DNA from: Methylosinus sp. C49
GTDB taxonomy: Bacteria; Pseudomonadota; Alphaproteobacteria; Rhizobiales; Beijerinckiaceae
Assembly (NCBI RefSeq): GCF_009936375.1
Contig: NZ_AP022332.1
Location: 3,504,501-3,568,500, forward strand
Length of the DNA stretch: 64,000 bases
Direction: 5' to 3'
Shown here: in pieces, positions 1,726-54,804 of the stretch
Numbering within the stretch: the stretch's first letter is position 1
Layout: each line of letters opens with the position of its first letter
Program-made: the position numbers and the translations under genes
Notes under the pieces: generated by a model
The model's database searches: none
Told to the model about the DNA's origin: nothing
Seen by the model: only the letters and a program-made list of their open reading frames with translations

Positions 1726-2874
1726 TTATTTCCCAGCGGCCTGCGTCTTCCACGGATCGGCGAAGCGTGGCGAGGTGAGCAGCGTCTCGTCGGTGAGCGC
1801 CTTCAGAAAAGCCAGCAGATCGGCCTTCTCCTGCGGCGTCAGATCGATCTTCACGATCAGCGGGCTCTTCAACGGATTGGCCGCGCCGTCGCCGGCGTTC
1901 GGGCCGCTCGCGATCTTCCGGCCGCCGCGCGCATAGATATCGATGACCTCCTCGAGCGTCGCGACCGTTCCGTCATGCATATAAGGGCCCGTCACCGCTA
2001 TGTTGCGCAGCCCCGGCGCGCGGAACTTGCCCATATCGTCAGGGTCTTGCGTGATATCGTAGAGGCCGTGATTGGGCTCTGGATAGGCGCCCTTTCCGTC
2101 GATGTCGTAGAGCCCGGTGTTGTGGAACGGCGTCTCCGCCTCGCGCGTCTTGGCGTGCACGAATTGATCGTCGAGATTGACGCTGCCATGGCAATGATGA
2201 CATTCCGCCTTCTCGCCGAAATAGAGATCGTGCCCGCGCTGCTCCGCCTCGGTCAGCTTGATCTTGCCTTGCAGATATTGATCGTAACGGCTGTCGAAGG
2301 AAATAACGCCGCGCTGAAAGGCCGAGATCGCCTTGATGATCGTCTCGAAGGAGATTTGCTCGGCGGGCTTCTTCTCGGGAAAAGCCGCGGCGAACCATTT
2401 CTTGTAGTCGGCGTCATTGCGGAAGCGCGCGACGATCTCCGCCTTATTGGCGTCATTGACTCCCATCTCGATCGGCCGCTCGCCATAGAGCGGATTTTCC
2501 ATCTGGCGCTCGAGCGTCACCAGCGCCGGATTGGCCCAGGTGAGCGTCGCATGCCAGCCGGAATTGACGATCGACGGCGCATTGCGCGGCGTCTTGTCGC
2601 CCGTGGAGCCGACGCTGACGACGCGCCCATCGGTGAAGGCGCGCTCCTGCAAATGACAGGAGGAGCAGGAGAGCGTTCCATTGCCCGAGACGCGCTTGTC
2701 GAAGAACAAGCGCCGCCCGAGCTGAAACTTCTCCTCCGACATGGGATTGTCGGCAGGCGTGCGCGGCGGCGGAACATATTTGGGAAGCTCCCACTTCCAT
2801 TCCGTCGGCTGGGCCGTCGCGGCGCAAGCCGTCGCGACGGCGAGCGTCAATCCGAAAAGCGAACCCCGGCTCAT
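1726..2874 (-). CDS. mbnH: MbnH-like di-heme cytochrome c peroxidase/MauG family protein
   Basis: A 382-residue exported protein with signal peptide (LFGLTLAVATACAATAQ) and two c-haem sites, CSSCH near residue 70 and CHHCH near 225, in the bacterial di-haem peroxidase fold. The conserved block 'APGLRNIAVTGPYMHDGT' follows. In the methanobactin system MbnH is a MauG-like enzyme that oxidises a tryptophan of its partner MbnP through a high-valent di-haem state. The ATG at 2874 overlaps the stop of the MbnP-like gene (ATGA), so the two are translationally coupled. An in-frame upstream extension to 3021 is Arg-rich antisense-type sequence and was excluded. The exact orthology (MbnH versus another MauG-like partner) is inferred from the MbnP neighbour. 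Confidence 0.85.
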   Translation of the reverse strand: MSRGSLFGLTLAVATACAATAQPTEWKWELPKYVPPPRTPADNPMSEEKFQLGRRLFFDKRVSGNGTLSCSSCHLQERAFTDGRVVSVGSTGDKTPRNAPSIVNSGWHATLTWANPALVTLERQMENPLYGERPIEMGVNDANKAEIVARFRNDADYKKWFAAAFPEKKPAEQISFETIIKAISAFQRGVISFDSRYDQYLQGKIKLTEAEQRGHDLYFGEKAECHHCHGSVNLDDQFVHAKTREAETPFHNTGLYDIDGKGAYPEPNHGLYDITQDPDDMGKFRAPGLRNIAVTGPYMHDGTVATLEEVIDIYARGGRKIASGPNAGDGAANPLKSPLIVKIDLTPQEKADLLAFLKALTDETLLTSPRFADPWKTQAAGK

Positions 2875-3851
2875 TGCTTTGCGCCCATGACTTTCGCCGA
2901 CGTCATCGCGCCGGCTTTGAAAATCGGCGAGACGCCGGGCTTGGTCTGCTTGCCGGCGTCGCCGGCGCCCGCGGCGCTGTCGCCGAGATTGAGACCGAGC
3001 GCGGCGAAAACGGCAGGACATTCAGGATCGTCGAGCGCGCTCATGCAGCCGATCGCGCCGCCCTTGTCCGCGGCGATGTCGGAGCTCGCGAGCAGACCGG
3101 TCAAATCGAGCTCGACGCGCTGCGTCTTGGGATCGAAGCGATCGAGCGCCACAGTGAAGCGGTTCTCATGCGCGCAAGCGACGATCTCGCCGGTCGCGGG
3201 ATTGCCCTTGCAGGCGGTGGAGCCGATATGCACCATCCAGGTCCGCGCCTTGGAGCCGTCGGCCTTGACGACAGGCGTCGCCGGATCGAACTCGAAAGTC
3301 ACGAAGCGGCGGCCGGCCTGCCAGTTCCACGCCATGCCGACCACATCGAGCGGCGCCGGCGCGGTCTCGACATTGGAATGATTGATCGAAACGGGCTTGC
3401 CGTCGACGATCGTCTCTACCGGCGCGCCGACCGAGAATTCGAGGCCGACATAGGAGCCCGCCGGCGCTTTGCCGACGATTGTCGTGTTCTTGGCCGGATT
3501 GCCCGGCGTGCACGGATTATTGCCGCCGCGCGCATCTTTGAAGTCGAGCAGAGCGACGTCGCCATATTGCCATTCGCTCTGCTCCAGCGCCAAGGGGGTG
3601 CGCTTGCCCTTGGCGTCGACCAGCTTGAAGCCGTACACATAGAGACGCGCTTCATGGAGCTTGGCGGACAGATGGCCCGTCCCCAGATTGGCGAGCGGCG
3701 CGCCGCAGCCGACCTCCTTGCCATCGTCCATCAGCGCAAAGGAGATGGACACGGGCTTCGTCTCGCTGGAGGCGGCGAAAACCGGCCCGGAAACGCCGCA
3801 AAAATAGCCGGCCGCCACAGCCGCCAATCCGAGGCTTCGTAAATTCCGCAT
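2871..3851 (-). CDS. mbnP: MbnP-like metallo-mystery pair four-Cys protein
   Basis: A 326-residue exported protein of the four-Cys 'metallo-mystery pair' family (MbnP). After the signal peptide come Cys 49, 114, 214, 226, 269 and 278, and the block 'GMAWNWQAGRRFVTFEF' (Trp175/Trp177), which corresponds to the family motif containing the Trp that MbnH converts to kynurenine in Methylosinus MbnP. The protein is expected to be periplasmic and to bind copper. The start is the ATG at 3851, preceded by GGAGGAAGTCGAG; the earlier GTG at 3866 lies inside the Shine-Dalgarno region and is not credible. It lies 161 bp after the TonB receptor and overlaps mbnH by 4 bp. Confidence 0.87.
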   Translation of the reverse strand: MRNLRSLGLAAVAAGYFCGVSGPVFAASSETKPVSISFALMDDGKEVGCGAPLANLGTGHLSAKLHEARLYVYGFKLVDAKGKRTPLALEQSEWQYGDVALLDFKDARGGNNPCTPGNPAKNTTIVGKAPAGSYVGLEFSVGAPVETIVDGKPVSINHSNVETAPAPLDVVGMAWNWQAGRRFVTFEFDPATPVVKADGSKARTWMVHIGSTACKGNPATGEIVACAHENRFTVALDRFDPKTQRVELDLTGLLASSDIAADKGGAIGCMSALDDPECPAVFAALGLNLGDSAAGAGDAGKQTKPGVSPIFKAGAMTSAKVMGAKQ

Positions 3852-4012
3852 CTCGACTTCCTCCACCTATCGGCCGGGCGTCCCGCCGACCGCAAAAATT
3901 TCTCGAGGGCCTCGCCTGCCTTATAGGACGCGCAAGGCGACGAAAAAGGAACATCGGGACGGAAGATTTTTTTGCGGCGAGCGCAAATCCCCCGTCCCGC
4001 AGCGCCATACGA

Positions 4013-6544
4013 TCAGAACTCCACGCGCAACGAGCCGAGGAAAGTGCGGGGCGTTCCGGTCTGGATCGTCGTCCTGTTGCTCGACGTCGGATAATAGATC
4101 GTATCGGTGATGTTCTTGACGTTGAGCTGCGCTGTGACCGTGAAGTCTTCGATCTTGGTCGTATAGGCGACCATGCCGTTGAGCAGCGCATAGCCGGGCA
4201 GGATGAAGCTGTTGGCGTTGTCGCCGAGCGAGCTTTCGACCACGGTGACGCCGCCGCCGAGGCTCAATCCGCGGAACTGCCCATCGGCCTCGTATTTGAC
4301 CCAGAGATTGCCGTAATTGCGCGGGCTCGCCGGCAGCTTGTAGCCGGCGACGGCGACCTGAGTGGTGATGAGAGTGGCGGGATTATAGGTCGGCGCGCCT
4401 TGCACGGTGCGCACATCGTCATGTGTGTAATTGGCAATGATGCTCCAATTGTCGTCGACGCGTCCAGTCAGATCGAACTCGAGTCCCTGACTACGCGCCT
4501 TGCCGATGACGAGCGTATTGGCGGAATTATTCGGATCGGGAGTCGGCACATTGGTCTTCGTGAGGTCGTAATAGGCGAGGGTCGCAGTGATGCGCTTGTC
4601 CAAAAGTTCCGCCTTCACGCCGCCTTCCAGCTGCTCGCCCTTCTGTGGAGGCAAGGGATAGCCGAGAGTCGTCGTGTTGTTTGTGCCGAACGAGCGAGTA
4701 AAATTGCCATAGAACGACAGCCATGGCGCAGGCTGATAGACCAATCCGACACGCGGGCTGAAGGCCGCGTTGTAGACCGTCGTGTAGGTGGTGAGCGAGC
4801 CCAGATAGGTGGTGTTCTTGTTGCTGCTCGTCTCCGCCCAATCATAGCGACCTCCGAGCAGAACATGCACGGTGTCGTCGAGAAAGGAGATCAGATCCTG
4901 CCCATAGACGCCCGTCCATTTCTGAGCTTGCCCGATGAAGTTCGGCGTCGAATAGGGTTTGTCCAGGGTCCAGTAATTTGGCGCATAAATATTGATCGAG
5001 CCGATGGCGGGAGTCATGTTCCAATAGGTTGGCATCGCCGTTCGGAGATAATCGAAGCCAATGAGCGCATTGTGCTCGAAAGGTCCAGTCGAGAACTTGC
5101 CTTTCAGATCGACATTTGTCGCAAAATCGAACTCCCGAAATCCTCCCGATACCGTCGTATTGGTGAGCGACCTCGTCAGCACGCCGGTCGCTTGATTGAT
5201 GGTTCCGCCGAAAACATTCGCCTGGCTATCGTCGAAAGTCGTGTAGCTCAGCCGATTTGTGAGGCTCCAGCCGGGGAAGAAATCATAGGTCCAGTCATAG
5301 GCGATACGGCGCTTGTCATATTGATGCGGAGAGGTCGTCGTCAGCAGCGGCGCTTGCAAATAGCGAGAGATCGGGATCGGCGCGGGATAGGAGCCGATGG
5401 CGGGAAGCACCGGATAGTCATCGACCCAGGTGCGATGCTGATATTCGAAGTCGATATTGGCGCGGAACTGTTCGATCGGATGAAAGGAGAGCGTCGGAGC
5501 CAGAAACAGGTTCTGGTCCACGACGAAATCTCGATAGGAATATGTGTGATAGAATTCACCATTGAAGCGATAGAGAATGGAATGATCCGCGGTGAGCGGC
5601 CCCGTCGCGTCGAGGCTCGTTCGCGTCATGCCGTAAGAGCCGTTCTGCTGCTGCACCGAATAATAAGGCGTCTCCATCGGACGCTTGGTGACGAGATCGA
5701 TCAAGCCGCCCGGCTCGACACGGCCATAGAGTATGGCCGCCGGCCCCTTCAGCACCTCGATCGACTGTATATTGGCCGTGTCGAGATAACGCATGCGATA
5801 TTCCATCAGGCCATTCTTGTAGAAATTGCCGACATTCTGGAATCCGCGGATCTTATAAGCTTCGACGAAATTGGGCGTCGTCTGAACGCCACTGACATTG
5901 GTGACGATGGCGTCCTTTACGCTGATCGCCTGCTGATCGTCCATGAGCTGGCGCGTCACCACCTGCACCGACACCGGCGTCTTCAAGAGCGGCGTATCCA
6001 TCTTCATGGCGCTGGAAGCGTTCTCCGCCTTATAGCCGGTATATCTGTCTCCCGGCCCCGAGGCCGCGCCGGGCGCCGGCGCCCCGCGCGGGCGCTCCTT
6101 CCTCTCCGCCCCCACATCGATCGGCGGCAACGATTCCGCGCCGCTCGCGTCGTTCATCGTCCCGCGATCGTTCTCCGCCAGAATGATGAATACGTCGCGC
6201 TGATTGTCGGCGAGGCGGTAGCTCAGCCCCGTCCCCGCCAGCAGCTGGTCCAGCGCCGCGCCGAGCGTGTAGTCTCCCGTCAATCCGACGGTCTTCACAT
6301 TGCGCGTGAGCCCGGCGAGGAACACCATCTGCACGCCGTTCTGCTCGGCGATGCGCGCCAGCGCCATGCCGACCGATCCGGCCGGAATGCGGTAGGATCT
6401 CACCTCCGCGGCGATCTCGACGGCCTGCATTCGGGCATGGGCCGCCGCCGGCGCATCCGCGCCGAATGTGAAAGCCCCCATCGCCGCCGCCGCGAGAACC
6501 GCGCTCATACGCTCGTCCCTCCGACCCAAACCCTTGCGCCTCAT
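4013..6544 (-). CDS. TonB-dependent receptor with N-terminal signalling (STN) domain, MbnT-like
   Basis: An 843-residue outer-membrane receptor. After the export signal, residues about 47-120 form the secretin/TonB short N-terminal domain (YRIPAGSVGMALARIAEQNG) found in receptors that talk to a FecR anti-sigma factor. The linker 'LPPIDVGA' precedes the plug (TPVSVQVVTRQLMDDQQ, 'IEVLKGPAAILYGRVEPGG') and the beta barrel of the siderophore-receptor type, which ends in the usual terminal Phe (RVEF). It lies 138 bp after FecR and upstream of MbnP/MbnH, the order of mbnT in methanobactin operons. The ligand (methanobactin, another chalkophore or a siderophore) cannot be read from sequence. Confidence 0.9.
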   Translation of the reverse strand: MRRKGLGRRDERMSAVLAAAAMGAFTFGADAPAAAHARMQAVEIAAEVRSYRIPAGSVGMALARIAEQNGVQMVFLAGLTRNVKTVGLTGDYTLGAALDQLLAGTGLSYRLADNQRDVFIILAENDRGTMNDASGAESLPPIDVGAERKERPRGAPAPGAASGPGDRYTGYKAENASSAMKMDTPLLKTPVSVQVVTRQLMDDQQAISVKDAIVTNVSGVQTTPNFVEAYKIRGFQNVGNFYKNGLMEYRMRYLDTANIQSIEVLKGPAAILYGRVEPGGLIDLVTKRPMETPYYSVQQQNGSYGMTRTSLDATGPLTADHSILYRFNGEFYHTYSYRDFVVDQNLFLAPTLSFHPIEQFRANIDFEYQHRTWVDDYPVLPAIGSYPAPIPISRYLQAPLLTTTSPHQYDKRRIAYDWTYDFFPGWSLTNRLSYTTFDDSQANVFGGTINQATGVLTRSLTNTTVSGGFREFDFATNVDLKGKFSTGPFEHNALIGFDYLRTAMPTYWNMTPAIGSINIYAPNYWTLDKPYSTPNFIGQAQKWTGVYGQDLISFLDDTVHVLLGGRYDWAETSSNKNTTYLGSLTTYTTVYNAAFSPRVGLVYQPAPWLSFYGNFTRSFGTNNTTTLGYPLPPQKGEQLEGGVKAELLDKRITATLAYYDLTKTNVPTPDPNNSANTLVIGKARSQGLEFDLTGRVDDNWSIIANYTHDDVRTVQGAPTYNPATLITTQVAVAGYKLPASPRNYGNLWVKYEADGQFRGLSLGGGVTVVESSLGDNANSFILPGYALLNGMVAYTTKIEDFTVTAQLNVKNITDTIYYPTSSNRTTIQTGTPRTFLGSLRVEF

Positions 6545-6682
6545 CCGCCGCTTCCTCGCTCTTTGCCGGGGACGAGCGCGTCCCCATTGATCAGGACGAC
6601 CGGCGGAGGCATTTGGAAGGGTCGGGTCTGCGAATTATTTTCACTGTTCGGCGCGACCGACCGCGTCGCGCCGTTTCCTTTC

Positions 6683-7618
6683 CTATTTATAGATATAAAT
6701 CAGATATTTGCTTATGGAGAGCGTCTTCACGCCCAGCGCGGCTTCGAGAGCGCTCGCCGCGCCGATCGGATTGGCCGCATCGAAGGAGCCGGTCACGAGC
6801 AGGCCCCGCACAGAGGGAGCCGCGAACAAAAAGCCATTGTGATAGCGGCCGAGCGTCGCCAGCACATCGGCGAGCGGCTCATCCTCGAAGACGAGGCGTC
6901 CACGCCGCCAGCCGCCGATGCGAAAGAGATCGACCGGCGCCGGCTCGGTGATCGCGGCGCCGGCGCCGAAACGGCTGTGCCGGCCCTCCTCCACAATGGC
7001 GCGGGCGCCGCCGCTCGCAACCGCCACCCTATGCTCGGCGACGGCGACCTCGGCGTTGGATTTGTCCTCGAGAGCAATGTCGAAGGCCGTGCCGAGAGCG
7101 GTCACAGTCGCGCCCGCCGCCTCCACCACGAAGGGGCGCGCCGGATCGGGCGCCGCCTCGAAAAAGGCTTCTCCGGCGAGCAAGGCGAGGCGTCGCTCGC
7201 CGGCGCGGTACCGAATGGCGAGCGCCGAGCGGGCCGACAGATGCGCGCGCGAGCCATCCTCCAGCTCGACGACGCGAGTCTCGCCGGTTCCGGTGAGGAC
7301 GTCGGCGCGAAAGCGGATAGTCAGCTCATCGAAGAGCAGAAACGCCGCCAGCGAGGCGGCGAGCAGCGCCGCGACCGGCGCGATCCGCGCGGGCCGCTTC
7401 CCGGCGCTCGCCCGGCCCCGGGTCCACAGATCCCGCACCTCGCCGAAGAGATGCGCCGCCTCGTCGAAAGCCGCGCGATGGGCGGGATCGGCGGCGAGCC
7501 AAGCGTCGAAAGCCGCGCGATCGGCGGCGGAGAGCGGACCGGCGTCGCATTTGACCCACCATGCGAGCGCCGCCGCGGAGAGATCGGCGTCCTGGTTCGG
7601 CTCGTCGTCTCGGCTCAT
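6683..7618 (-). CDS. FecR-family anti-sigma/sigma regulator (MbnR-like)
   Basis: A 311-residue inner-membrane regulator. The N-terminal DUF4880-type segment (AALAWWVKCDAGPLSAADR...FDAWLAADPAH) would bind the sigma factor; one membrane span (VAALLAASLAAFLLF) is followed by the periplasmic FecR domain (LEDGSRAHLSARSALAIRY, GEAFFEAAPDPARPFVVE) and an STN-like C-terminal region. It receives the signal from the loaded TonB receptor and releases the ECF sigma factor. The ATG at 7618 was preferred over a TTG at 7654; the best upstream purine run (GGAGG) lies about 14 nt away, so the start is not certain. It is 131 bp after the sigma gene. Confidence 0.88.
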   Translation of the reverse strand: MSRDDEPNQDADLSAAALAWWVKCDAGPLSAADRAAFDAWLAADPAHRAAFDEAAHLFGEVRDLWTRGRASAGKRPARIAPVAALLAASLAAFLLFDELTIRFRADVLTGTGETRVVELEDGSRAHLSARSALAIRYRAGERRLALLAGEAFFEAAPDPARPFVVEAAGATVTALGTAFDIALEDKSNAEVAVAEHRVAVASGGARAIVEEGRHSRFGAGAAITEPAPVDLFRIGGWRRGRLVFEDEPLADVLATLGRYHNGFLFAAPSVRGLLVTGSFDAANPIGAASALEAALGVKTLSISKYLIYIYK

Positions 7619-7749
7619 CGAAAAATCATCGCCTCCGGCGCAGGATTTCGGCAAGACAGCATCGGGCGGCGCAGTCCATCGGCGGCGCGCGCCGCGGTCT
7701 CAGTTTCTTTAGACGCGCGAGAAGCTGCAATGGAAGGGTCCGCTCCCGC

Positions 7750-8250
7750 CTATTTTATCGCCATGCGGCATCGCTCCATCGCGAGACGGAAGTGCTGCTC
7801 GACCGTCTTTCGCGAAATGCCCAGCTTCGCGGCGATGTCGCGCTGCGACATGTTCTGACCGACCCGCATTTCGAAAATCTCCCGGCAGCGCGGCGGCAAA
7901 GCGGCGACGGCTGTCGCCAGTCGCGCCCTTCGCTGCGCGTCCTCGACGAGATGTTCGGCGCTCGGCTCCTGCGATGCGGCGTCGCAGGCGTCCGCTTCGG
8001 GATCGACGATTTTGCGCTCGAGCGCCCGATGTCGAGCGAAGTCCTTGGCGAGGTTTCCCGCGGTGCGACGCAGATAGGCGGGAGGATCGACGATCTCGGC
8101 CGCCGCCTCCCGCGTCAAAAGGCGCACGAAAGTCTCCTGAAGCAGATCTGGCGCATTCTCGCGACCGACGCGGCGCGTCAAAAATCGCAAGAGCGCGCGC
8201 CGATTGCTCGAGAACAGCGCGCGGAACGAAGCTGTTGTCTTGTCCACCAT
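7750..8250 (-). CDS. ECF sigma-70 factor, FecI/MbnI-like
   Basis: A 166-residue sigma factor with region 2 (ALLRFLTRRVGRENAPDLLQ, ETFVRLL) and region 4 (ALPPRCREIFEMRVGQNMSQ, 'RDIAAKLGISRKTVEQHF'). FecI-type sigmas of this size activate their linked TonB-receptor operon when the receptor signals through FecR. It is the first regulatory gene of the receptor-mbnP-mbnH set and 151 bp after a DUF2946-like gene. A paralogue sits at 28242-28787. The assignment to the MbnI type comes from gene order. Confidence 0.9.
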   Translation of the reverse strand: MVDKTTASFRALFSSNRRALLRFLTRRVGRENAPDLLQETFVRLLTREAAAEIVDPPAYLRRTAGNLAKDFARHRALERKIVDPEADACDAASQEPSAEHLVEDAQRRARLATAVAALPPRCREIFEMRVGQNMSQRDIAAKLGISRKTVEQHFRLAMERCRMAIK

Positions 8251-8401
8251 ATGCGGCTTCCGACGAAAGATCGGGCTCGACGCCGACGCACGGGAGCTTC
8301 CCGTCCATTCGGCGGTCCAGACAATGGGCAGATCGTGAAAACGAGGAATGGCCCCATTCGCCGGGGAAGCGGCCCGAGCAGGAAAAAATCGTCTCGAGCG
8401 A

Positions 8402-8824
8402 TCAGCGCGTCGGCGGCGCGCGCGACGACCAGGAGCTGATCCAGCCGGCCGGGGACGATTTCTCCACGATCTGAAAAACGTCGCTCGCGGCGATCACGTG
8501 GGCCGGGAATGAAAAACACAGTCCTTGCGGTAGGGCCGAGACGGCTCCGGCCGGACCGTCGAGCTGGCTGGTCCGACAGGGAATGCAGCAGGAGCACGAA
8601 AAATGTGACCCGGGGGAATGACGATTGTCGTCGGCGTCGCCGGGCGCCGCGCAATGGCCGAGGCTCGTCGCGACGATCCCGTGATCGACCGCGGACCAGG
8701 CCGCGGCGGCGATCCCCGGCAAGATCAGCGCCCAAGCCAAAAGGCCCGCGATCAATAGGCGGGCGGCTCCTTTCGGCCAAAGCGCGAACCTGTGCATATC
8801 GCTCACGAAACCCCCGGAGGCCAT
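8402..8824 (-). CDS. DUF2946-like small Cys-rich protein at head of the mbnP/mbnH locus
   Basis: A 140-residue (or 131-residue, from ATG 8797) protein with an N-terminal hydrophobic segment (LLIAGLLAWALILPGIAAAA), a Cys-rich motif SCSCCIPC near the middle, and a C-terminus SSRAPPTR. Small exported proteins of the DUF2946 type share this plan (signal anchor, CxxC-like cluster, terminal R-x-P-P) and often neighbour copper genes. Two further proteins of this plan occur at 27784 and 61238. Its position ahead of the sigma gene matches the second cassette, suggesting a part in metal sensing or handling. The family call is by pattern and not certain. Confidence 0.6.
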   Translation of the reverse strand: MASGGFVSDMHRFALWPKGAARLLIAGLLAWALILPGIAAAAWSAVDHGIVATSLGHCAAPGDADDNRHSPGSHFSCSCCIPCRTSQLDGPAGAVSALPQGLCFSFPAHVIAASDVFQIVEKSSPAGWISSWSSRAPPTR

Positions 8825-8920
8825 GCGGAGTCAAGCTCGGAATGGCTTCGAGCTCGGAAAGACCAAGGAGCGATCCGCGCCCGCGGGCGACGACCGCCGC
8901 CCGATCGGCTAGAAAGCGTC

Positions 8921-9455: not shown

Positions 9456-11303
9456 ATGCGCGTTCGCCGTCTCGATCCCATTCTCGTCGATCGCATCGCC
9501 GCCGGCGAGGTGATCGAGCGGCCGGCCTCCGCCGTCAAGGAGCTGGTCGAGAATGCGCTCGACGCCGGCGCCGCGCGCATCGACGTCGCCATTGAGGCGG
9601 GCGGGCGGCGGCTCATTCGCGTCATCGACGATGGATGCGGGATGAGCGCCGAGGATTTGGCGCTCGCCGTCGAGCGCCACGCCACGTCGAAAATCCCTGA
9701 TGGCGATCTGACCGCCATAGCGACGCTCGGCTTTCGCGGCGAGGCGCTGCCCTCCATCGCCGCGGTCGCCGATCTGACGATCGACGCGCGCGCCGCCGGC
9801 GCCGAGGTCGGCGCGCAGATAAGGGTGGAGGCGGGCGAGAAGCGCGGGCTCAAGCCCAGCAATTGGCCCAAGGGCGCGCGGGTGGAGGCGCGCGATCTCT
9901 TCGCGGCGACGCCGGCGCGGCTCAAATTTTTGAAAACCGAGCGGGCGGAGACGGCGGCCGTCGCCGATGTGGTCAAGCGGCTGGCCATGGCCAATCCGGC
10001 CGTGCGCTTCTCCTTCGCGGCGGATATGGGCGCTTCCTTCGATTATCCCGCCTGCGGGGCCTCCGAGGAGGGACGGGCGCGGCGCATCGCCCAGGCGCTG
10101 GGGACGGAATTCGCCGATAATGCGATTGCGCTGCATGCGGAGCGCGAGGCGTTCCGCCTCGAGGGGCTCGCCGGCCTGCCGACCTTTCATCGCGCCAATG
10201 CGCTGATGCAATATGTCTATGTGAATGGCCGTCCGGTGCGCGACAAGCTGTTCTCCGGGGCCATTCGGGCCGCCTATCTCGATTTTCTGTCGCATGACCG
10301 CCATCCGGCGCTGGCGCTGTTCCTCGAATGCGATCCGCGCGTCGTCGATGTGAACGTCCATCCGGCCAAGGCGGAGGTGCGCTTTTCCGATCCCGGCCGC
10401 GCGCGCGGCCTGGTGGTGGGCGCGCTGAAGGAGGCGCTGGCCTCGGCGCTCCATCGCAGCGCCGACACGCCGGCCCGCGCCGCGCTGGACGTGCTGGCCA
10501 CGCGGGCCAGAACGGCGCCCGGGCGGGAATGGTCGGCTCCTTCCGGCGCGGGCTTTTCTTCCTTCGGCGGGCCGCCGCGCAGCCGGCCGCTCGACTGGGA
10601 TTTGCGCAGCTCGCCCAGCGCCCCTGCCGGCTTCGCGGAGCCGCCGCAAGCGGCTTTCGACGTCGGGCCGCCTTCGGCCGATTCGCGGCCCGCCGCCGCG
10701 CCGCCCGCGGCCGCCGCCGTGGAAAACCCGCTCGGCGCGGCGCGGGCGCAGCTGCACGAGACCTATATCGTCGCGCAGACCAAGGACGGGCTCGTCATCG
10801 TCGATCAGCACGCCGCCCATGAGCGGCTCGTCTATGAGAAATTGAAAGCCCAGCGGGAGGCGGAGGGCGTCGCCCGCCAGCTGCTGCTGGTTCCGCGCGT
10901 CGTCGAGCTGGATGCGACGCGGCTCGACGCGCTGCTGTCGGCGCAGGAGGAGCTTTCCGCCCTCGGTCTGGCGCTGGAGCCTTTCGGCCCCGGCGCCGCG
11001 CTGGTGCGGGAGACGCCGGCGGCGCTCGGCGACATAGATGTCGGAAGGCTCATCGAGGATATCGCCGATCTCCTCGCCGAGGAGGGGGACGCGCGTGGGT
11101 TGACGCGGCGGCTCGATGCGCTTTTGTCGCGCGTCGCCTGTCATCATTCGGTGCGCGCCGGCCGCCGGCTGACGGCCGAGGAGATGAACGCGCTGCTGCG
11201 CGAGATGGAGAAAACGCCGGGCGCCGGCCAGTGCAATCACGGCCGGCCGACCTATGTGGAGCTGAAGCTCGCCGACATCGAAAAGCTGTTCGGCCGCGGC
11301 TGA
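9456..11303 (+). CDS. mutL: DNA mismatch repair protein MutL
   Basis: A 615-residue MutL. The N-terminal GHKL ATPase shows 'ELVENALDAGA', 'DDGCGM' and 'TLGFRGEALPSIAAV'; a Pro/Ala-rich linker spans about residues 330-430; the C-terminal dimerisation domain contains the metal-dependent nicking motif 'DQHAAHERLVYE' and the late motif 'QCNHGRPT'. It is therefore the endonuclease-type MutL found in bacteria without MutH, acting with MutS to nick the new strand. It lies 77 bp after the UPF0178 gene and appears singly transcribed. Confidence 0.97.
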   Translation: MRVRRLDPILVDRIAAGEVIERPASAVKELVENALDAGAARIDVAIEAGGRRLIRVIDDGCGMSAEDLALAVERHATSKIPDGDLTAIATLGFRGEALPSIAAVADLTIDARAAGAEVGAQIRVEAGEKRGLKPSNWPKGARVEARDLFAATPARLKFLKTERAETAAVADVVKRLAMANPAVRFSFAADMGASFDYPACGASEEGRARRIAQALGTEFADNAIALHAEREAFRLEGLAGLPTFHRANALMQYVYVNGRPVRDKLFSGAIRAAYLDFLSHDRHPALALFLECDPRVVDVNVHPAKAEVRFSDPGRARGLVVGALKEALASALHRSADTPARAALDVLATRARTAPGREWSAPSGAGFSSFGGPPRSRPLDWDLRSSPSAPAGFAEPPQAAFDVGPPSADSRPAAAPPAAAAVENPLGAARAQLHETYIVAQTKDGLVIVDQHAAHERLVYEKLKAQREAEGVARQLLLVPRVVELDATRLDALLSAQEELSALGLALEPFGPGAALVRETPAALGDIDVGRLIEDIADLLAEEGDARGLTRRLDALLSRVACHHSVRAGRRLTAEEMNALLREMEKTPGAGQCNHGRPTYVELKLADIEKLFGRG

Positions 11304-11451: not shown

Positions 11452-12522
11452 TTGATCGAACAAGCGATGTTTTTCGCGCTCGGGTTCCTCGCGGCCGGGC
11501 TGTTCACACTGATGTTCCTGCCCGCCTTCTGGCGGCGGGCCATGCGTCTGTCGCTGCGCCGGCTGAATATGCTGACGCCCCTCTCGATCGAGAAAATGGT
11601 GGCGGAGCGCGATCTGCTGCGCGGCGAGCTCGCCGTGCGCTATCGCCGGCTCGAGCAGCAGATGGCGACGGTCCGATCGACCAAGGCGCAGGATATGGTC
11701 GAGATCGGCCGCAACGCCGCTCGCGTCGCGCAGCTCGACGGCGAGCTGACGCAGGCTCTCGCCCGCGGCGATGAGTTCGAGCGCAAGTTCAACGAGACCA
11801 GCGGCTTCCTCGAGGAGCGCACGGCGCTGCTGCAATCGACGGAAACCGCGCTGCACGACATGACCGACCGCGTCGAGACGCTGATCTACAATCTGCGCAA
11901 TGTGGAGATGGACAAGGAGCAGCTCGCCCGCCTCAGCGAGGAGAGCCGCGCCGAGGTCGCGACCCATGAGTCGAGCATCGCCAGCCTGCATGTGCAGAAC
12001 GCCGAGCTGCGCCAGCGGCTGGACGCGCTGCAGACGGAATTCGCGACCGCCTCCGCCGTGGCGGAGCGCCTCTCCGCCGTCGATGGCGTGTTGGCGCGCA
12101 CGACGCGGGAGCTCGACGCCGCCGTGCTGGAGACGGCCGATCTGAAAAAGGATCTCGACGAGACCCGCGCGCGGCTGGCGGCTCTGGAGCACAGCTCCGC
12201 GGCCGAGATCGCGCATCTCGAGGCGGCTCTGCGCGTCGCCCGCGCCGAGGAGCGCGACCACGCCGATCGGCTGGAGACAGCGCGTTCCGACAATGCGATG
12301 CTGCAAGGGGCGATGGACGCGCTGCGCAAGGAGCATGCGAGCCTGCGCGAGACGATCGCCGCGACGGCTCCCGCGGCGGCGCCGGTCGAGGGGGCGGCCT
12401 CCGGCGACCGCGAGGTGCTGGTTCTGCGCCAGGCGATCGTCGATCTCGGCGTGCGCATGGCGGAGATGGCCGCGGCCGCCGCCGCCGAGCCGGGCGAAGC
12501 CGCGCAATCGAAGCGGGCCTGA
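11452..12522 (+). CDS. Membrane-anchored coiled-coil protein of unknown function
   Basis: A 356-residue protein with one N-terminal membrane span (MFFALGFLAAGLFTLMFLPA), a short basic stretch, then an almost continuous coiled coil from about residue 50 to 300 (many Leu/Glu/Arg heptads such as 'LDGELTQALARGDEFERKF'). The TTG at 11452 has AAGGAA 9 nt upstream; an ATG at 11467 is the alternative. Similar proteins occur across Hyphomicrobiales without an assigned role. The topology suggests a cytoplasmic coil attached to the inner membrane. It is not obviously in an operon. Confidence 0.65.
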   Translation: MIEQAMFFALGFLAAGLFTLMFLPAFWRRAMRLSLRRLNMLTPLSIEKMVAERDLLRGELAVRYRRLEQQMATVRSTKAQDMVEIGRNAARVAQLDGELTQALARGDEFERKFNETSGFLEERTALLQSTETALHDMTDRVETLIYNLRNVEMDKEQLARLSEESRAEVATHESSIASLHVQNAELRQRLDALQTEFATASAVAERLSAVDGVLARTTRELDAAVLETADLKKDLDETRARLAALEHSSAAEIAHLEAALRVARAEERDHADRLETARSDNAMLQGAMDALRKEHASLRETIAATAPAAAPVEGAASGDREVLVLRQAIVDLGVRMAEMAAAAAAEPGEAAQSKRA

Positions 12523-27578: not shown

Positions 27579-27783
27579 GGCCGGCCTTTCTCATTCGACG
27601 TGTCCGGCGGCGGCCGGCGGTCGCATGATAAGATGGTTGTCCGCCGTTCGAAAGCGTCTGGCGCGGCCGCGACTGTGGCCGCCGCGCAACAGCGGCTCGG
27701 ATATTGGGCCACGGCGGCGCCCGATCATTGACCCGGGAATTACAGCGGACCTATTTTTGCGCTCGATGAGGACATTCTCCTCC

Positions 27784-28155
27784 ATGCGCCTCCCGGCGCG
27801 CCGGCTCCTCGCCTGCGCAACGGTGATTCTCGCCCTATTGCAGGCCGTCGCCCTCTTCGGCTCGATAGCGCGCGCGCATGGCGATGTCGGCCTCTCCTCC
27901 GCTCTCTCGGCCAACACGCTCTGCGCCGCCGCCCGCGACAGCGACGGAACGCCCCTCGCCCATCACGCCGGCGAGCATCATTGCGTCCTGTGCTCGGATC
28001 GCGGCGCCGAGCCGCCCGCCCTCGCGCCCATCGCCGCGCCGCTTTCGCTGCGGCCGGACGGAGTCGCCAGCATCGGCGCGCGGGCGCTGTCGCCGCGCGC
28101 GCCGCCGCTCGGCTGGGCGAGTTCCTGGTCCTCGCGCGCGCCGCCATCGGTCTGA
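27784..28155 (+). CDS. DUF2946-family small Cys/His protein
   Basis: A 123-residue protein from ATG 27784 (TGAGGA upstream; ATG 27766 also possible). It has an N-terminal hydrophobic segment (LLACATVILALLQAVALFG), a His/Cys motif 'HHAGEHHCVLCSDRG' typical of DUF2946, and a C-terminus SSRAPPSV nearly identical to that of the protein at 8402. It heads the second sigma/FecR/receptor cassette, 86 bp before the sigma gene. DUF2946 proteins are often next to copper transport genes; a metal-binding role is inferred from the HHCxxC motif. Confidence 0.72.
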   Translation: MRLPARRLLACATVILALLQAVALFGSIARAHGDVGLSSALSANTLCAAARDSDGTPLAHHAGEHHCVLCSDRGAEPPALAPIAAPLSLRPDGVASIGARALSPRAPPLGWASSWSSRAPPSV

Positions 28156-28241
28156 AAATCGAATGCCCTCGCCCCTCGGGCGAGCGGCCGGTCTCGACTT
28201 TTCGGTTCCATCGCGCTCGCGCGCCAGCCAGGGCGTTTCCT

Positions 28242-28787
28242 TTGTCTCGATCGATCTCGTCGCGCGGCGATCGGCCTGCGGACGCCAAACCTTGGCGGTT
28301 TCGCGAGCTGTTCCTCGCCCATAAGCGTGATCTCTTCGGCTTTCTCGTGCGCAAGGTCGGCGCCGTCGACGCGCCGGATCTGCTGCAGGAGACGTTCCTG
28401 CGCATGGTCCGCCACGACCGGCCCGAGACCATCGAGGACCCGCCGGCCTTTCTCAAGCAGATCGCGGTCAATCTGGCCCGCGACTTCGCCCGCCGCCGCA
28501 AGACCGAGGAAAGCCACCTCCAATTCGGCGACTATGTGATCGACCCGCCGGCGCCGGAAGCGCCGATCGAGGAACGACTCGATTATGAGCGGCGCTCGGC
28601 TCTGCTGAGAACGGCCATCGAGACATTGCCGCCGCGCTGCCGCGAGGCCTTCGAGCTGCATATCTATAATGACGTCCCGCTCGCCGAAGTGGCGCGGCGG
28701 ATGGACATATCCGACCGCATGGCGCGCAAGCATGTCAGCCTCGCGCTGCGCGCCTGCCGCGCCGCGCTGCGGAGCGAGGCCGAGTGA
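28242..28787 (+). CDS. ECF sigma-70 factor, FecI-like (second cassette)
   Basis: About 181 residues from TTG 28242; the frame is open further upstream but overlaps the DUF2946 gene. Region 2 reads 'LFGFLVRKVGAVDAPDLLQE' and region 4 'TLPPRCREAFELHIYNDVPL' with 'AEVARRMDISDRMARKHVSL'. It is similar in plan to the sigma at 7750. It is expected to be held by the following FecR and to direct transcription of the TonB receptor. The start codon is the weakest part of the call. Confidence 0.87.
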   Translation: MSRSISSRGDRPADAKPWRFRELFLAHKRDLFGFLVRKVGAVDAPDLLQETFLRMVRHDRPETIEDPPAFLKQIAVNLARDFARRRKTEESHLQFGDYVIDPPAPEAPIEERLDYERRSALLRTAIETLPPRCREAFELHIYNDVPLAEVARRMDISDRMARKHVSLALRACRAALRSEAE

Positions 28788-28872
28788 TTTTTTCCCGTTT
28801 CGAGGTTCCGCCTCGCGCCAGGGCCGCGTCATCTATACTGTCGCGCGCGGCGCCTCGAGGACGGAAGCAGAG

Positions 28873-29817
28873 ATGACCGGGGATAAGGCGAGAGAACCCG
28901 CGCCGGACGAAGCCGGGGACGCCGCGATCGAATGGTTCGTGCGCTTGCGCGAGGGGAAGCTCTCGGCCGAGGAGACGGCCGCCTTCGCGGCCTGGCGCGC
29001 CGAGCCGGCGCATGCGGCAGCCTTCGAGGAGGTGCTGCATATGTATGGCCGCCTCGCCGGCATGAGCCCCGCCCGCCGCATGCGGCCGGCGCCGCGCGCC
29101 GCGCGCGGGATGCGGGCGGCGGCCCTCGCCTTCGCCGCGGCGGCGGCGGTCGCGGTCTTCGCCTCCTATGACGAGATCGTCATGCGGCTCGAGGCCGACC
29201 ATTTCACCGGCGTCGGCGAGAAACGGCTGGTGACGCTGGACGACGGCTCGCATGCGCTGCTCGACTCGCGCTCCGCAATCGCTTTGCGCTATTCGGCGGG
29301 CGAGCGGCGGCTCCGGCTCCTCTCGGGCGAAGCCTGGTTCGACGTGGCGCCCGACGCTTCGCGCCCCTTCGTGGTCGAGGCGGGCGACGGCCGTATCACC
29401 GCGCTCGGCACCGCCTTCGATGTGGCGCTGGAAAAATCCGGCGCGCGCATCACTGTGACGGAGCACCGCGTCGGCGTCGCCAGCGGCGGCAACACCACGA
29501 TCGTCGAGGAAGGCCAGCAGACCGCCTTCGAGCGCGACGCGCCGGCGCGCGCGCCGGAGAGCGTCGATATCGACACGGCGACCGCCTGGCGGCGCGGCAA
29601 GCTCATCGTCAATCGCCAACCGCTCGGCGATGTGCTCGCCGCGCTCGGCCGCTATCATCGCGGCTATATTTATTGCGTCGATCGCGCGATCTGCGCCCGC
29701 CGCATTTCCGGCGTCTTCGGCGCGCAGGAGGACGCCCTGCAATCCTTGGCGGAGATCGAGGCCTCGCTCGGCCTGCGCGCCATCCATGTCACCAGCTATC
29801 TGATCCTTCTGTATTGA
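28873..29817 (+). CDS. FecR-family regulator (second cassette)
   Basis: A 314-residue inner-membrane anti-sigma regulator. It has the N-terminal 'AIEWFVRLREGKLSAEETAA', 'FAAWRAEPAHAAAFEE' domain, a membrane span near residue 85 (AAALAFAAAAAVAVFASY), and the periplasmic FecR domain ('LDDGSHALLDSRSAIALRYS', 'GEAWFDVAPDASRPFVVEAG') followed by an STN-like end. The ATG at 28873 has GGAAG upstream. It is 85 bp after the sigma gene and 121 bp before the receptor, the same order as in the mbnP/mbnH locus. Confidence 0.9.
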   Translation: MTGDKAREPAPDEAGDAAIEWFVRLREGKLSAEETAAFAAWRAEPAHAAAFEEVLHMYGRLAGMSPARRMRPAPRAARGMRAAALAFAAAAAVAVFASYDEIVMRLEADHFTGVGEKRLVTLDDGSHALLDSRSAIALRYSAGERRLRLLSGEAWFDVAPDASRPFVVEAGDGRITALGTAFDVALEKSGARITVTEHRVGVASGGNTTIVEEGQQTAFERDAPARAPESVDIDTATAWRRGKLIVNRQPLGDVLAALGRYHRGYIYCVDRAICARRISGVFGAQEDALQSLAEIEASLGLRAIHVTSYLILLY

Positions 29818-29938
29818 ATTTGAACGCTTCATCTGCGCGCGAATTTTTTCGAGCGTAGGAGGTTCCGCTTTTTCCGCCTGCCGCGTCCTGTTCCCGAGAG
29901 CCCGAACTCTATGGCGGGCGTTGCGACGGCGGGACGAA

Positions 29939-32653
29939 ATGGCCATGGCGAGGAAGAAGTCGGTAGGCGAGGGCGTGAATATGAGTTCGACGGCGATCGC
30001 CTTGGCGCTGAGCGCGATGACGCTCGGCGCAGAGGCTCCGGTGACGAGCGCGCAGGCCTCCATCTCGCCGCAGGAGCGTGACGGGGCGCTGCGCGACTAT
30101 CGCATTCCCGCCGGCGCCATGGAGACGGCGCTCAACGCTTTCGCCGACCGCAGCGGCCTGCATATCGTCTTCGACGTCGGCCTCACAGAGGCGATGCGGA
30201 CGCGCGGCGTCGTCGGCGCCTATTCGGTGCGCGAAGGACTCGACCGGCTGCTCTCGGGCACCGGCCTCTCCTATCGCCTGTCGGAGAACGGCCGTTCCGT
30301 CTCCATCATTCTCGCGCAGGCCGCGCGCGGAACCATGACCGACGCCAGCGGCGAGGAGCTGCCGCCGATCGACATAGGCGCGGAGCAAAAGCGCGCGAAC
30401 GGCGTCTCCAATGCGCCGGGCTTCGACGCCGAACGCGCTAGGCAGCCGATCTATCGCGATCCGCCCGGGCAGACAGTCACGACCGTCGATCACAAATTCC
30501 TCGAAACGACGCCGATGCAGACTGTGCAGGACATGCTGCAATACAGTCCCGGCGTCTCCATCTCGCAAGGCACGATTCCGCGCGAGCTGCTGCCGTCGAT
30601 CCGCGGCTCCGGCAATCGCCTCGGCATGACCTATCCTTTCACCGTCCGCAATATCATGCTCTATGAGGACGGCTTTCCGATCGTCACCGCGGACGGCAAT
30701 GGCCGCACCGACATGCTGGACCCGCACTCCTTCTCCGGCGTCGACGTCTATCGTGGTCCCTCTTCCGCTATGTTCGGCAATTACGCCTATGGCGGCGCGA
30801 TCAATTTCCGCAGCCTGACCGGCAAGGAGATCGACGGCGTCGAGACCGGCTCGGAATTCGGCAGCTTCGGCTATTTCAACAATTATCTGCGCGCCGGAAA
30901 GAAGTTCACCGATCGCGATCTCGGCGATCTCGACATTGCGATCTTCGGCTCCGACACACGCGGCGACGGCTATCTCGCACGCGGCGCGCATGAATTCGAC
31001 CAGGGCAAGGTTCTGGCCACTTGGACGCCGGTTCCGACCGATCGGCTGACGTTCAAATTTCTCGCCAGCAGCTCCTTCGCGGAATTCATGAACCGCAGCT
31101 CGCTGACGCAATTCTACACCAATCCCTATGGCAAGAATGTCAATTGCCGCATAGCGACGCCCGCCAATCTTCCCTTCTGCAACAATCTCTATGTGCCGGC
31201 GAACGGCTCCTTCACCAGCGGCGCCTCGGGGCTCTCCAATCAGAGCGTCTGGCAGCTCGGCACGCATTGGCATGTGATGCGCGATATCGTCGGCTTACGC
31301 TATGAGCACGACTTCGACAACGCCACCACATGGCGCACGCAATTTTCCTATGATTATCTCGATTACATCAACAGCACCTGGCCGCCGCCGAAGGTCGGCC
31401 CCGCTATTTTCGGCGGCCTCGGCGGGCCGGTCGCGATCCGCGGTCCGTCCTATGGCCTCAGCGCCTCCACCGACATCACCAATCACGGCGCGATCTTCGG
31501 CCTGCCGGCGACGCATTATCTCGGCTTCTTCTATGACGGTCTCAAAAGCGTCAATCCGCTGTATTCGCAAGTTCCCAATGTGTGGGGTTACGGCGCGATC
31601 GGCGGCGCGGTCGGCAATATCGAATCCAATCACTCCAATCTGAGCATTCGCGCGCGCGAAGAGATTGCGCTGACGCCGCAACTCACCGCGGCGATCGGCT
31701 TCAGCTCCAATTGGAACAGAATCTCCGGCGTCTACACCGTCTATAATTACGCGAGCAATGGAACCATGACGCGGCCGACGGAGGTCGGCGTCGACAATGA
31801 CTATTGGAACACGGCGCCGGAGGCTTCGCTCACCTATCGTTACAGCCCGGAATGGCAATTCCGCGCGCGCTATGCGACGGGCTATGGAACGCCGAATTTC
31901 ATGTATCTCACCAATACGCCGACGGGCGCAGGCAACAACACCTCGCTGAAGGCGCAGACCAATATGGGCGTCGATCTCGGCGTCGATTGGACGCCGACGA
32001 AAAATCTGACGGCGAGCGTCACGCTCTATAATGAATGGTTCCGCAACGAGATCCTCACTCAGGCGAACGGTCTCGTCAGCTATCAGCTCAATGCGCCCTC
32101 CTCGATCCATCGCGGCGTCGAGGCGAGCGTCGATTGGCGGCCTTTCGATGGTTGGCGATTCATCGCGGCCTATGCCTATAACGACCAGTATTTCACCAAT
32201 TTCTGGGACAATCTCTCATCGACCGTCTCTTATAATCGCGCGGGAAATCGCATCCCCAATGTGCCGACGCATACTCTGACGAGCCGCGCCGGCTATGACA
32301 TTCCAGACGGCGATCTCAAAGGCCTCGGCGCTTTCGTCGAATATGTGTTCAAGAGCTCCTACACGATCGACAACGCCAATCTGACGTCGATCCCGGGCTA
32401 TGGGCTCGTCAATCTCAATGTGCATTACAGCCGCGCCATAGAGGGCAGCTATGTGAAGAACATAGAGATCTATTTCGATGTGAAGAATCTCTTCGACCGC
32501 ACCTATGTCGCCGGCGCCAATGTGCTGACCAACACGCTGATGACGGGAACCGCCGTGCAGACGCCCGCGACATTGCTCGCCAATTCGACCGGCGCGTCGA
32601 TCATCGCCGGCTCGCCGCGCGCTTTCATCGGAGGGGTGAAGTTCAAATTCTGA
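29939..32653 (+). CDS. TonB-dependent receptor with STN signalling domain (second cassette)
   Basis: About 904 residues. The N-terminal STN domain (YRIPAGAMETALNAFADRSG) is followed by the same linker as receptor 1 (LPPIDIGA), the plug ('MLQYSPGVSISQGTIP', 'VDVYRGPSSAMFGNYAYGG') and a 22-strand-type barrel ending in VKFKF. The barrel differs strongly from receptor 1, so a different ligand is likely. The plug motif 'FGNYAYGGAINFRS' recalls FecA-like and metal-complex receptors. ATG codons at 29939 and 29945 are both possible. The product is an outer-membrane importer energised by TonB. Confidence 0.9.
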   Translation: MAMARKKSVGEGVNMSSTAIALALSAMTLGAEAPVTSAQASISPQERDGALRDYRIPAGAMETALNAFADRSGLHIVFDVGLTEAMRTRGVVGAYSVREGLDRLLSGTGLSYRLSENGRSVSIILAQAARGTMTDASGEELPPIDIGAEQKRANGVSNAPGFDAERARQPIYRDPPGQTVTTVDHKFLETTPMQTVQDMLQYSPGVSISQGTIPRELLPSIRGSGNRLGMTYPFTVRNIMLYEDGFPIVTADGNGRTDMLDPHSFSGVDVYRGPSSAMFGNYAYGGAINFRSLTGKEIDGVETGSEFGSFGYFNNYLRAGKKFTDRDLGDLDIAIFGSDTRGDGYLARGAHEFDQGKVLATWTPVPTDRLTFKFLASSSFAEFMNRSSLTQFYTNPYGKNVNCRIATPANLPFCNNLYVPANGSFTSGASGLSNQSVWQLGTHWHVMRDIVGLRYEHDFDNATTWRTQFSYDYLDYINSTWPPPKVGPAIFGGLGGPVAIRGPSYGLSASTDITNHGAIFGLPATHYLGFFYDGLKSVNPLYSQVPNVWGYGAIGGAVGNIESNHSNLSIRAREEIALTPQLTAAIGFSSNWNRISGVYTVYNYASNGTMTRPTEVGVDNDYWNTAPEASLTYRYSPEWQFRARYATGYGTPNFMYLTNTPTGAGNNTSLKAQTNMGVDLGVDWTPTKNLTASVTLYNEWFRNEILTQANGLVSYQLNAPSSIHRGVEASVDWRPFDGWRFIAAYAYNDQYFTNFWDNLSSTVSYNRAGNRIPNVPTHTLTSRAGYDIPDGDLKGLGAFVEYVFKSSYTIDNANLTSIPGYGLVNLNVHYSRAIEGSYVKNIEIYFDVKNLFDRTYVAGANVLTNTLMTGTAVQTPATLLANSTGASIIAGSPRAFIGGVKFKF

Positions 32654-54267: not shown

Positions 54268-54350
54268 CGCCTATTTCCGTTGAAAGCTCCGCCGGCGCCT
54301 ATTTCGAGGCGCGACGGACGATTGTGACGCGAAACCCTTTCGAAAGAGCT

Positions 54351-54417
54351 AGAGCGCTGTCCGCTCGAACGGGATGTTCGAAACGATCAGAATTCGCATC
54401 CAACGAAAGAATCTAGC
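54351..54417. repeat. Dispersed intergenic repeat, copy 2
   Basis: Partner of the repeat at 891-957: AGAGCGCTGTCCG at the left, then a variable middle, then a core (54385-54416) identical to copy 1 at 31 of 32 positions. It fills the gap between the AlaC start and the end of the next leftward gene, and stops a few nt before that gene's stop codon. Confidence 0.75.
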
Positions 54418-54420
54418 GCG

Positions 54421-54804
54421 CTATTGCGCGCTCTGGCGCTGTTTCGTCTCGGCGCGCCGCTCTTTCGGCGCGTCGGGAATTTTGACGCGGGCGCCGCGGG
54501 CGCGATTGGCGGCCGCGGCGGCGACGAGCTCTTTCTCGAGCTCGGCGGCGCGGGCGGCGCTCTTCTTGGCGTCCTTTTTGACGTCGGCCGCCTGAGTCGG
54601 CGCGGCGAAGGGCGTGTAGCCGGTCGCGCCATTGCGCGAGCGCTCGACGAAATCGGCCGGCGCCGGCGGCGGACGCCGCATTTCAATTCCCTCGAAGAAT
54701 TTGCCGATCGACTCGCCCGCGGTCTCCGAGCCGGCCTCCTGCGCGCGCGCGCCGCCCGTGGCGACGGCGAACAGGACCAGGCAGATCGCGAGGCGACAAA
54801 TCAT
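54421..54804 (-). CDS. Small exported hypothetical protein
   Basis: A 127-residue protein from ATG 54804 with a clear signal peptide (LAICLVLFAVATGGARAQ) and a charged helical remainder (AARAAELEKELVAAAAANRA). No known domain. The longer frame that runs on to 57522 is antisense to phaC and was rejected. It is divergent from phaC, 216 bp apart. Function unknown. Confidence 0.6.
   Translation of the reverse strand: MICRLAICLVLFAVATGGARAQEAGSETAGESIGKFFEGIEMRRPPPAPADFVERSRNGATGYTPFAAPTQAADVKKDAKKSAARAAELEKELVAAAAANRARGARVKIPDAPKERRAETKQRQSAQ

Follow-up and report, generated by a model that had tools for sequence, protein, structure and literature searches.

A gene cluster in Methylosinus sp. 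C49, lying within the 64,000-nucleotide (nt) stretch of contig NZ_AP022332.1 analyzed here (the window; positions 3504501-3568500), is probably an auxiliary, self-sensing system for the uptake of foreign copper-methanobactin, in a strain that encodes two other methanobactins. On the minus strand, a leading open reading frame (ORF) with a CruR-like layout is followed by genes for an extracytoplasmic function (ECF) sigma factor (mbnI), a FecR-type anti-sigma factor (mbnR), a TonB receptor bearing an STN domain (mbnT), MbnP, and the MauG-like dihaem enzyme MbnH (Table 1), which would presumably be co-transcribed. This gene order, proposed in a first-pass annotation, is borne out by NCBIfam and Pfam matches, and the Trp motif of MbnP (MAWNW) and both haem sites of MbnH (two CxxCH) that it reported are present. 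Copper decides the choice of methane monooxygenase in methanotrophs, and the sharing and theft of methanobactin shape that competition.

Coordinates are positions in the window unless a contig is named, and family calls rest on the cut-offs of NCBIfam (TIGR) and Pfam profiles. In labels, G denotes a genome (G000 being the strain's own: 4.70 Mb, 5 contigs, completeness figure 100%), C a contig (the window lies on C1), L a sequence stretch examined, and the suffix "op" a receptor inside an mbn operon. L121 is the Methylosinus sporium locus, G042 the M. sporium genome, and G104 Methylosinus sp. Sm6; G099, G100, and G103 are other Methylosinus genomes, and G116 and G130 belong to Methylocystis.

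A probable extra uptake locus in a methanobactin producer

The window itself encodes no recognizable methanobactin biosynthesis, as the first-pass annotation had held. The gap between receptor and mbnP is 161 nt (given an mbnP start at the ATG at 3851) and contains no leader peptide, the mbnA leader-peptide pattern (which detected mbnA in 13 of 14 control regions, missing that in L145) has no match anywhere in the 64 kb, and MbnB and MbnC queries return chance-level matches only (E values of 0.64 and 0.45); on the pattern and the queries together, we reject the idea that mbnA, mbnB, or mbnC had been missed there. Searching the whole genome recovers mbnABC twice elsewhere, with MbnB exceeding its cut-off in complete mbn operons at C1:451840 and C4:27316. 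The chromosomal operon (L009) carries sigma, anti-sigma, STN receptor, mbnP, an mbnH remnant, mbnA, mbnB, mbnC, mbnM, and mbnF, with an MbnA core of CSSCPMCGPLCP; the C4 operon (L010) carries a receptor without STN, mbnA (core CGTACWG), mbnB, mbnC, mbnM, and mbnF. Because mbnABC are present twice elsewhere in the genome, the locus is, as judged by homology, an extra uptake system of a methanobactin producer. The earlier receiver-only reading thus survives for the locus, which would import without biosynthesis genes of its own and probably serves a chalkophore made by others, but not for the organism, which two full mbn operons rule out as a pure receiver. Sigma and anti-sigma factors are encoded within the chromosomal operon too (46% and 42% identical to the window pair), so that, by sequence, mbnABC do not sit under the same sigma factor as the window locus. 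Two further sigma/anti-sigma/receptor loci lie at C1:2133k and 2150k, with no mbnPH within the 16-kb stretches examined.

Among 99 evenly drawn genomes of the family, only 2 of them other Methylosinus, MbnB was found in the strain's own genome only; within the genus it occurs in 7 of 10. Plasmid records gave 53 short matches to the C4 operon, none covering 80% of it. In Methylosinus sp. Sm6, the mbnB match (G104:C66:116267-117046, L088) has one internal in-frame TAG.

Auxiliary uptake loci of this kind are already known from two papers. According to Kenney and Rosenzweig (2013; PMC3621798), Methylosinus strains LW3, LW4, and OB3b have isolated mbnPH pairs in the vicinity of MbnT-like receptors that come with MbnI and MbnR; the window locus has the same gene content and is likewise separate from mbnABC. 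In OB3b, uptake of MB-SB2 through MbnT2, which has a signalling domain and is encoded with mbnI2R2, was shown by genetics, and alternative receptors with such regulators are stated for other producers (Peng et al. 2022, PMC9601215); there too, a producer keeps sigma, anti-sigma, and STN receptor away from its biosynthesis operon. Unlike the OB3b mbnT2 system, the window receptor has a plug and barrel of another type and a mosaic STN. The best OB3b receptor is only 64% identical to it, so that it is no clear MbnT2 orthologue, and comparison with Methylocystis receptors as a yardstick did not single out MbnT2 among the OB3b receptors. The strain may resemble LW3, where mbnA likewise occurs twice and one copy encodes Trp after the second Cys, but the second LW3 operon lacks a nearby TonB receptor (PMC3621798), whereas the C4 operon has one. 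What looks new here is the receptor mosaic, a CruR-like copper gate, and a possibly shared mbnH; neither the mosaic, nor a head of CruR type, nor an mbnH remnant is mentioned for the LW3, LW4, and OB3b loci in the sections of PMC3621798 consulted. A search of open-licence literature, supplements excluded, found no methanobactin or siderophore receptor described as mosaic or swapped and no report linking DUF2946 or CruR to methanobactin or an ECF sigma factor.

Proposed receptor modules and the predicted ligand

The window receptor combines parts with different nearest relatives. Compared with the L121 receptor, it is 100% identical in the signal region and 96% in STN, falling to 71% in the linker, 70% in the plug, and 64% in the barrel; compared with the G099 operon receptor, it is 46% identical in STN, 88% in the plug, and 79% in the barrel. 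DNA identity to L121 is 91-98% over 8500-6301, 88% in the 200 bases that follow, and 57-82% from there to 4101; the 48% in 4100-3901 includes sequence beyond the gene end. On the other side, identity is 72-77% in 8900-8501, where the ORF heading the locus has its 5' part. The long alignment with L121 covers 4015-8840 only, and outside it are short patches and a second set of receptor genes described below. In plug/barrel trees, the window receptor groups with those of the G099 and G103 operons (support of 94 and 96), and placing it with the receptor of M. sporium instead is rejected by the approximately unbiased (AU) test (p-AU of 2.3e-8). The tree of STN and anti-sigma gives the reverse, with the window sequences joining M. 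sporium (support of 100) and the alternative grouping rejected (p-AU of 1.1e-4). The clades for the AU tests were picked after the identities were known, and the second receptor tree omitted 11 of the 44 rows of the first (divergent, near-duplicate, and one truncated). The nearest named receptor records are those of Methylosinus sp. Sm6 and M. sporium DSM 17706, very near relatives possibly being excluded. On these comparisons, the receptor is a mosaic, whose STN matches the M. sporium locus, as do mbnI and mbnR, and whose plug and barrel match the G099 and G103 operon receptors.

A similar division runs through the receptors compared, which are those retrieved rather than every receptor per genome and are related, not independent. 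Pairwise identities among 31 of the 33 STN-bearing receptors (omitting the second window set and OB3b_553k, the latter because its anti-sigma match is split in two pieces) give Pearson correlations of 0.87 for STN with MbnR and 0.93 for plug with barrel, against 0.36 for STN with plug and 0.28 for plug with MbnR; the corresponding values for the 26 Methylosinus rows are 0.93, 0.93, 0.28, and 0.22. Spearman coefficients are less favourable, at 0.49 (31 rows) and 0.69 (26 rows) for STN with MbnR and 0.26 and 0.22 for STN with plug, and on tree distances STN correlates with MbnR at 0.41 and with plug/barrel at 0.24, the value between plug/barrel and MbnR being 0.01. In 24 of 31 cases STN and MbnR pick out the same nearest neighbour; STN and plug do so in 9 of 31. 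Thirteen pairs share at least 85% identity in STN with less than 70% in the barrel, and 17 share at least 75% in the barrel with less than 60% in STN. Because only 0 to 3 of 500 permutations attain even the weak correlations, the exchange of modules is not total. Inclusion of OB3b_553k, whose STN is 80% and whose plug and barrel are 44% identical to those of the window receptor, would favour a modular reading.

It is an evenly balanced proposition that Methylosinus receptors in general consist of a co-inherited regulatory cassette (CruR-like RAPP end, spacer, mbnI, mbnR, and STN) and a swappable plug/barrel ligand cassette, so that a cell could acquire a new foreign chalkophore with its signalling kept matched, each locus acting as a two-input gate that opens only at low copper and in the presence of that foreign copper-methanobactin. 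The split between STN/anti-sigma and plug/barrel shows how a cell could change its uptake target with signalling unbroken.

The plug and barrel also point to a ligand. Among 8 operon receptors, the 25 pairs with different MbnA cores share 50-68% identity in the plug and 42-68% in the barrel, and the 3 same-core pairs share 88-98% and 76-99%, respectively (plug/barrel of 88/76 for G000op-G100op, 98/99 for G099op-G103op, and 97/96 for the Methylocystis pair G130op-G116op). At 88/79 to G099op, the window receptor is predicted to recognize a methanobactin of the G099/G103 type, whose core, CACNPPWCGTC, has no counterpart among the MbnA cores of its own genome. In G099, the operon reads, on one strand, sigma, anti-sigma, receptor, a second sigma, an ORF without an NCBIfam match, a HisC-like transaminase, mbnA (with this core), mbnB, mbnC, and mbnM. 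What counts against this assignment is that only the 88/76 same-core pair lies near the distance of the window receptor; with the other two pairs near-identical, the calibration is thin. Clear foreign receptors are the orphan M. sporium receptor C22 (plug 96% and barrel 97% identical to G100op), whose genome has no MbnB match at an E value of 1e-80, and G103_C5c (barrel 96% identical to G100op). The ligands of the many orphan receptors in these genomes become predictable if plug and barrel reveal the receptor type and this can be matched to an MbnA core.

It is unlikely that the window locus instead imports one of the two methanobactins that the strain makes itself, whether as redundancy or as an extra sensor. 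Both mbn operons reside in the same genome, and OB3b offers a precedent, in that mbnT2 is induced by MB-OB3b when MbnT1 is lost, though it is not used for uptake of that compound (PMC9601215); yet each of the strain's operons has a receptor of its own (64% and 46% identical to that of the window), and the window plug and barrel are much closer to the operon receptors that accompany the third MbnA.

MbnP and MbnH

MbnH forms kynurenine in MbnP, and both proteins at the window locus are well-supported family members: MbnH scores 483 bits against TIGR04039 (cut-off of 362.85), and MbnP scores 282 bits against TIGR04052 (cut-off of 140) and 87 bits against Pfam MbnP (cut-off of 27). MAWNW is kept in all 11 aligned MbnP proteins. 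Unlike the MbnP and MbnH of the OB3b operon, to which they are 77% and 78% identical, the window pair is unlinked to mbnABC, but like them it keeps the haem and Trp motifs (solved relatives, 7L6G and 6E1C). Once its Trp has been converted to kynurenine by MbnH, MbnP would handle periplasmic copper.

The numbers of MbnP and MbnH over cut-off differ within several genomes, being 2 and 1 in the strain's own genome, G100, and G103, 3 and 3 in OB3b, one each in G099, G104, and G042, and 2 and 1 in G101, whose second MbnP lies at a contig end. In the strain's own genome, nothing but the window mbnH exceeds the MbnH family cut-off. The mbnH remnant of the chromosomal operon, between mbnP and mbnA (L009:11293-11415), consists of matches of 41 and 32 residues and has an equivalent in L127 of G100, the region being 93.9% identical over 660 bases. 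The mbnP beside it is intact and constrained, with a ratio of nonsynonymous to synonymous substitution rates (dN/dS) of 0.23 relative to the G100 copy. G100 also has the pair closest to that of the window (MbnH, 96.3% identical, dN/dS of 0.13; MbnP, 93.3%, dN/dS of 0.24), and directly before this intact mbnP-mbnH pair stands what is left of a receptor, about 105 codons matching residues 720-843 (G100:C8; L150:8532-8846). Because an mbnH remnant adjoins a constrained mbnP in the one case and a pair is kept beside a receptor remnant in the other, a single MbnH may serve several MbnP proteins, and a P-H pair can apparently outlast its receptor. In G103, a further mbnP (C5:1110869-1111768, L151), 41% identical to that of the window, has no mbnH alongside.

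Such sharing could mean that the locus exists mainly for MbnP and MbnH, its MbnH also acting in trans on the chromosomal operon's MbnP and its receptor being secondary. The lone MbnH of the genome, the operon mbnP maintained beside an mbnH remnant, and the G100 pair surviving its receptor all favour such a role, which we nevertheless regard as quite improbable: the window receptor, sigma, and anti-sigma are intact, the six other mapped intact Methylosinus P-H pairs adjoin a receptor (L123, L124, L128, L129, L131, and L133), and a sub-cut-off MauG-like paralogue (C1:2376965; 263.6 bits), with counterparts in 8 of the 9 other genomes of the genus, might act instead. Very improbable is a ferric-siderophore or xenosiderophore receptor with FecIR-type regulators that stands beside mbnPH by chance: the receptor does match the generic TIGR01783 (338.6 bits; cut-off of 223.5), and among solved structures FoxA/CntO and FhuA are closest to it in sequence, but its equivalog scores for FhuA (260.6 of 803 bits) and FoxA (199 of 1300 bits) miss both cut-offs, it groups with operon MbnT proteins in our trees (built without characterized ferric-siderophore receptors), and it is headed by a CruR-like copper ORF.

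Predicted copper control and the surrounding sequence

The leading ORF of the uptake locus recalls CruR, a DUF2946 protein in which copper sensed by a CxxC motif relieves arrest at a C-terminal RAPP, leading to Rho termination before a TonB-receptor gene; CruR-type operons include MbnPH-like genes (PMC9426467). In the accessible text of that paper, FecI and FecR are unmentioned and "sigma" occurs once. Arrest by CruR has been seen in vitro, and RAPP-type arrest peptides of another protein type precede ECF sigma genes in Streptomyces lividans (PMC12992588). Like CruR of Bordetella pertussis, the window ORF is the first of a putative operon, has a CxxC (CIPC) and a near-terminal RAPP (two residues from the C terminus, versus three in CruR), and is followed by a long spacer (151 nt, versus 162 nt after B. 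pertussis cruR; PMC9973294). Unlike CruR, it precedes an ECF sigma gene rather than a receptor gene. The arrangement recurs: a RAPP-ending ORF (plus 2 to 4 residues) stands before an mbnI-type gene at 30 of 33 loci, 73-199 nt upstream of the start of the sigma match, and 24 of these 30 ORFs have a CxxC, 51 residues from RAPP in 17 of the 24 (range, 45-54). The largest C-over-G excess, a hint of Rho action, is greater upstream of mbnI than within it at 27 of the 30 loci. Within the window, only 3 of 379 stop-to-stop frames of at least 90 codons end in RAPP, and two of them precede its two sigma genes.

Several observations weigh against a simple equation with CruR. The CxxC-RAPP spacing at the window locus is 51 residues (54 from the other CxxC), not the 45 ± 1-2 of DUF2946; the ORF has no Pfam DUF2946 match; the C-over-G excess is modest at this locus (a maximum of 17, versus 14 within mbnI), and at 3 of the 30 loci the excess within mbnI is the larger. 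The third RAPP-ending frame, 61238-61624, precedes ORFs without Pfam matches, and a second sigma/anti-sigma/receptor set in the window (27754-32653) shares the CruR-like head with a receptor whose barrel, 21-22% identical to that of the best operon MbnT, is unlike MbnT. Because of these two cases, the regulatory kit alone is no proof of a methanobactin ligand, and we rejected it as such. Of 10 positional homologues, L128, L135, and L136 attain the Pfam cut-off for DUF2946, and a fourth misses it by 0.4 bits; L121 and L137 fall below it, and the second window set scores 20.6 of 23.7. The "DUF2946-like" label of the first-pass annotation was accordingly right in kind, given these positional equivalents, while the ORF itself lacks the match. 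With its RAPP/CxxC layout, missed Pfam cut-off, and small C-over-G excess, the leading ORF would, by analogy, work like CruR but is not a proven DUF2946 member.

Given a leading ORF laid out like CruR (CxxC...RAPP), we predict two-input control of the window locus, requiring both low copper and bound foreign copper-methanobactin. When copper is scarce, the ribosome would arrest at the RAPP end and transcription would continue into mbnI-mbnR-mbnT-mbnP-mbnH; copper on the CxxC would relieve the arrest, and Rho would terminate transcription in the 151-nt spacer. Foreign copper-methanobactin bound by the plug and barrel of MbnT would, following the OB3b MbnT2 model, cause STN to signal to MbnR, freeing MbnI for more transcription, and MbnT would import the complex. 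A CruR-type sensor heading sigma/anti-sigma/receptor loci would give methanobactin uptake a concrete form of copper control.

Table 1. Features of the uptake locus and of the second receptor set in the window
Feature	Position	Strand	Remarks
CruR/DUF2946-like leading ORF, 140 aa	8402..8824	-	N-terminal stretch hydrophobic by eye; CxxC present as CIPC; C-terminal RAPP
Spacer between leading ORF and mbnI, 151 nt	8251..8401	-	Candidate Rho-termination zone
mbnI, ECF sigma factor	7750..8250	-	Sigma-70 regions 2 and 4 over Pfam cut-offs; 94% identical to L121
mbnR, FecR-type anti-sigma	6683..7618	-	ORF open from 7654, likely ATG at 7618; Pfam FecR; 93.8% identical to L121
mbnT, STN-bearing TonB receptor, 843 aa	4013..6544	-	STN, Plug, and barrel over Pfam cut-offs
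mbnT STN domain, aa 40-118 as used	6191..6427	-	96% to L121 receptor, 46% to G099/G103 operon receptors
mbnT plug and barrel, aa 166-843	4016..6049	-	Plug 88-89% and barrel 79% to G099/G103op; 70% and 64% to L121
mbnP	2871..3851	-	ATG at 3851; stop overlaps mbnH start (ATGA); MAWNW present
mbnH, MauG-like dihaem enzyme	1726..2874	-	Two CxxCH
Second set, CruR-like ORF	27754-28155	+	
Second set, ECF sigma factor	28281-28772	+	
Second set, FecR	28888-29793	+	
Second set, STN receptor	29921-32653	+	Best NCBIfam match is the PQQ (pyrroloquinoline quinone) receptor PqqU, well below cut-off

Elsewhere in the window, the RAPP-ending frame at 61238-61624 (plus strand) also contains CCDAC and lies between a MipA-like gene and two Pfam-less ORFs; it is possibly a copper-responsive leader. 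A weak MbnF-like match occurs at 59306-59932 (27% identity over 227 residues). The uptake locus is near mutL (9456-11303), which a similar OB3b cluster (L124) also adjoins in the opposite orientation. A repeat of about 60-110 bases, 85-92% identical among its copies, occurs in the window at 891-997 and 54349-54424 and in L124 at 2940-3030 and 12167-12274; it flanks the OB3b cluster on both sides, lies near the cluster in the window, and might have mediated an inversion beside mutL.

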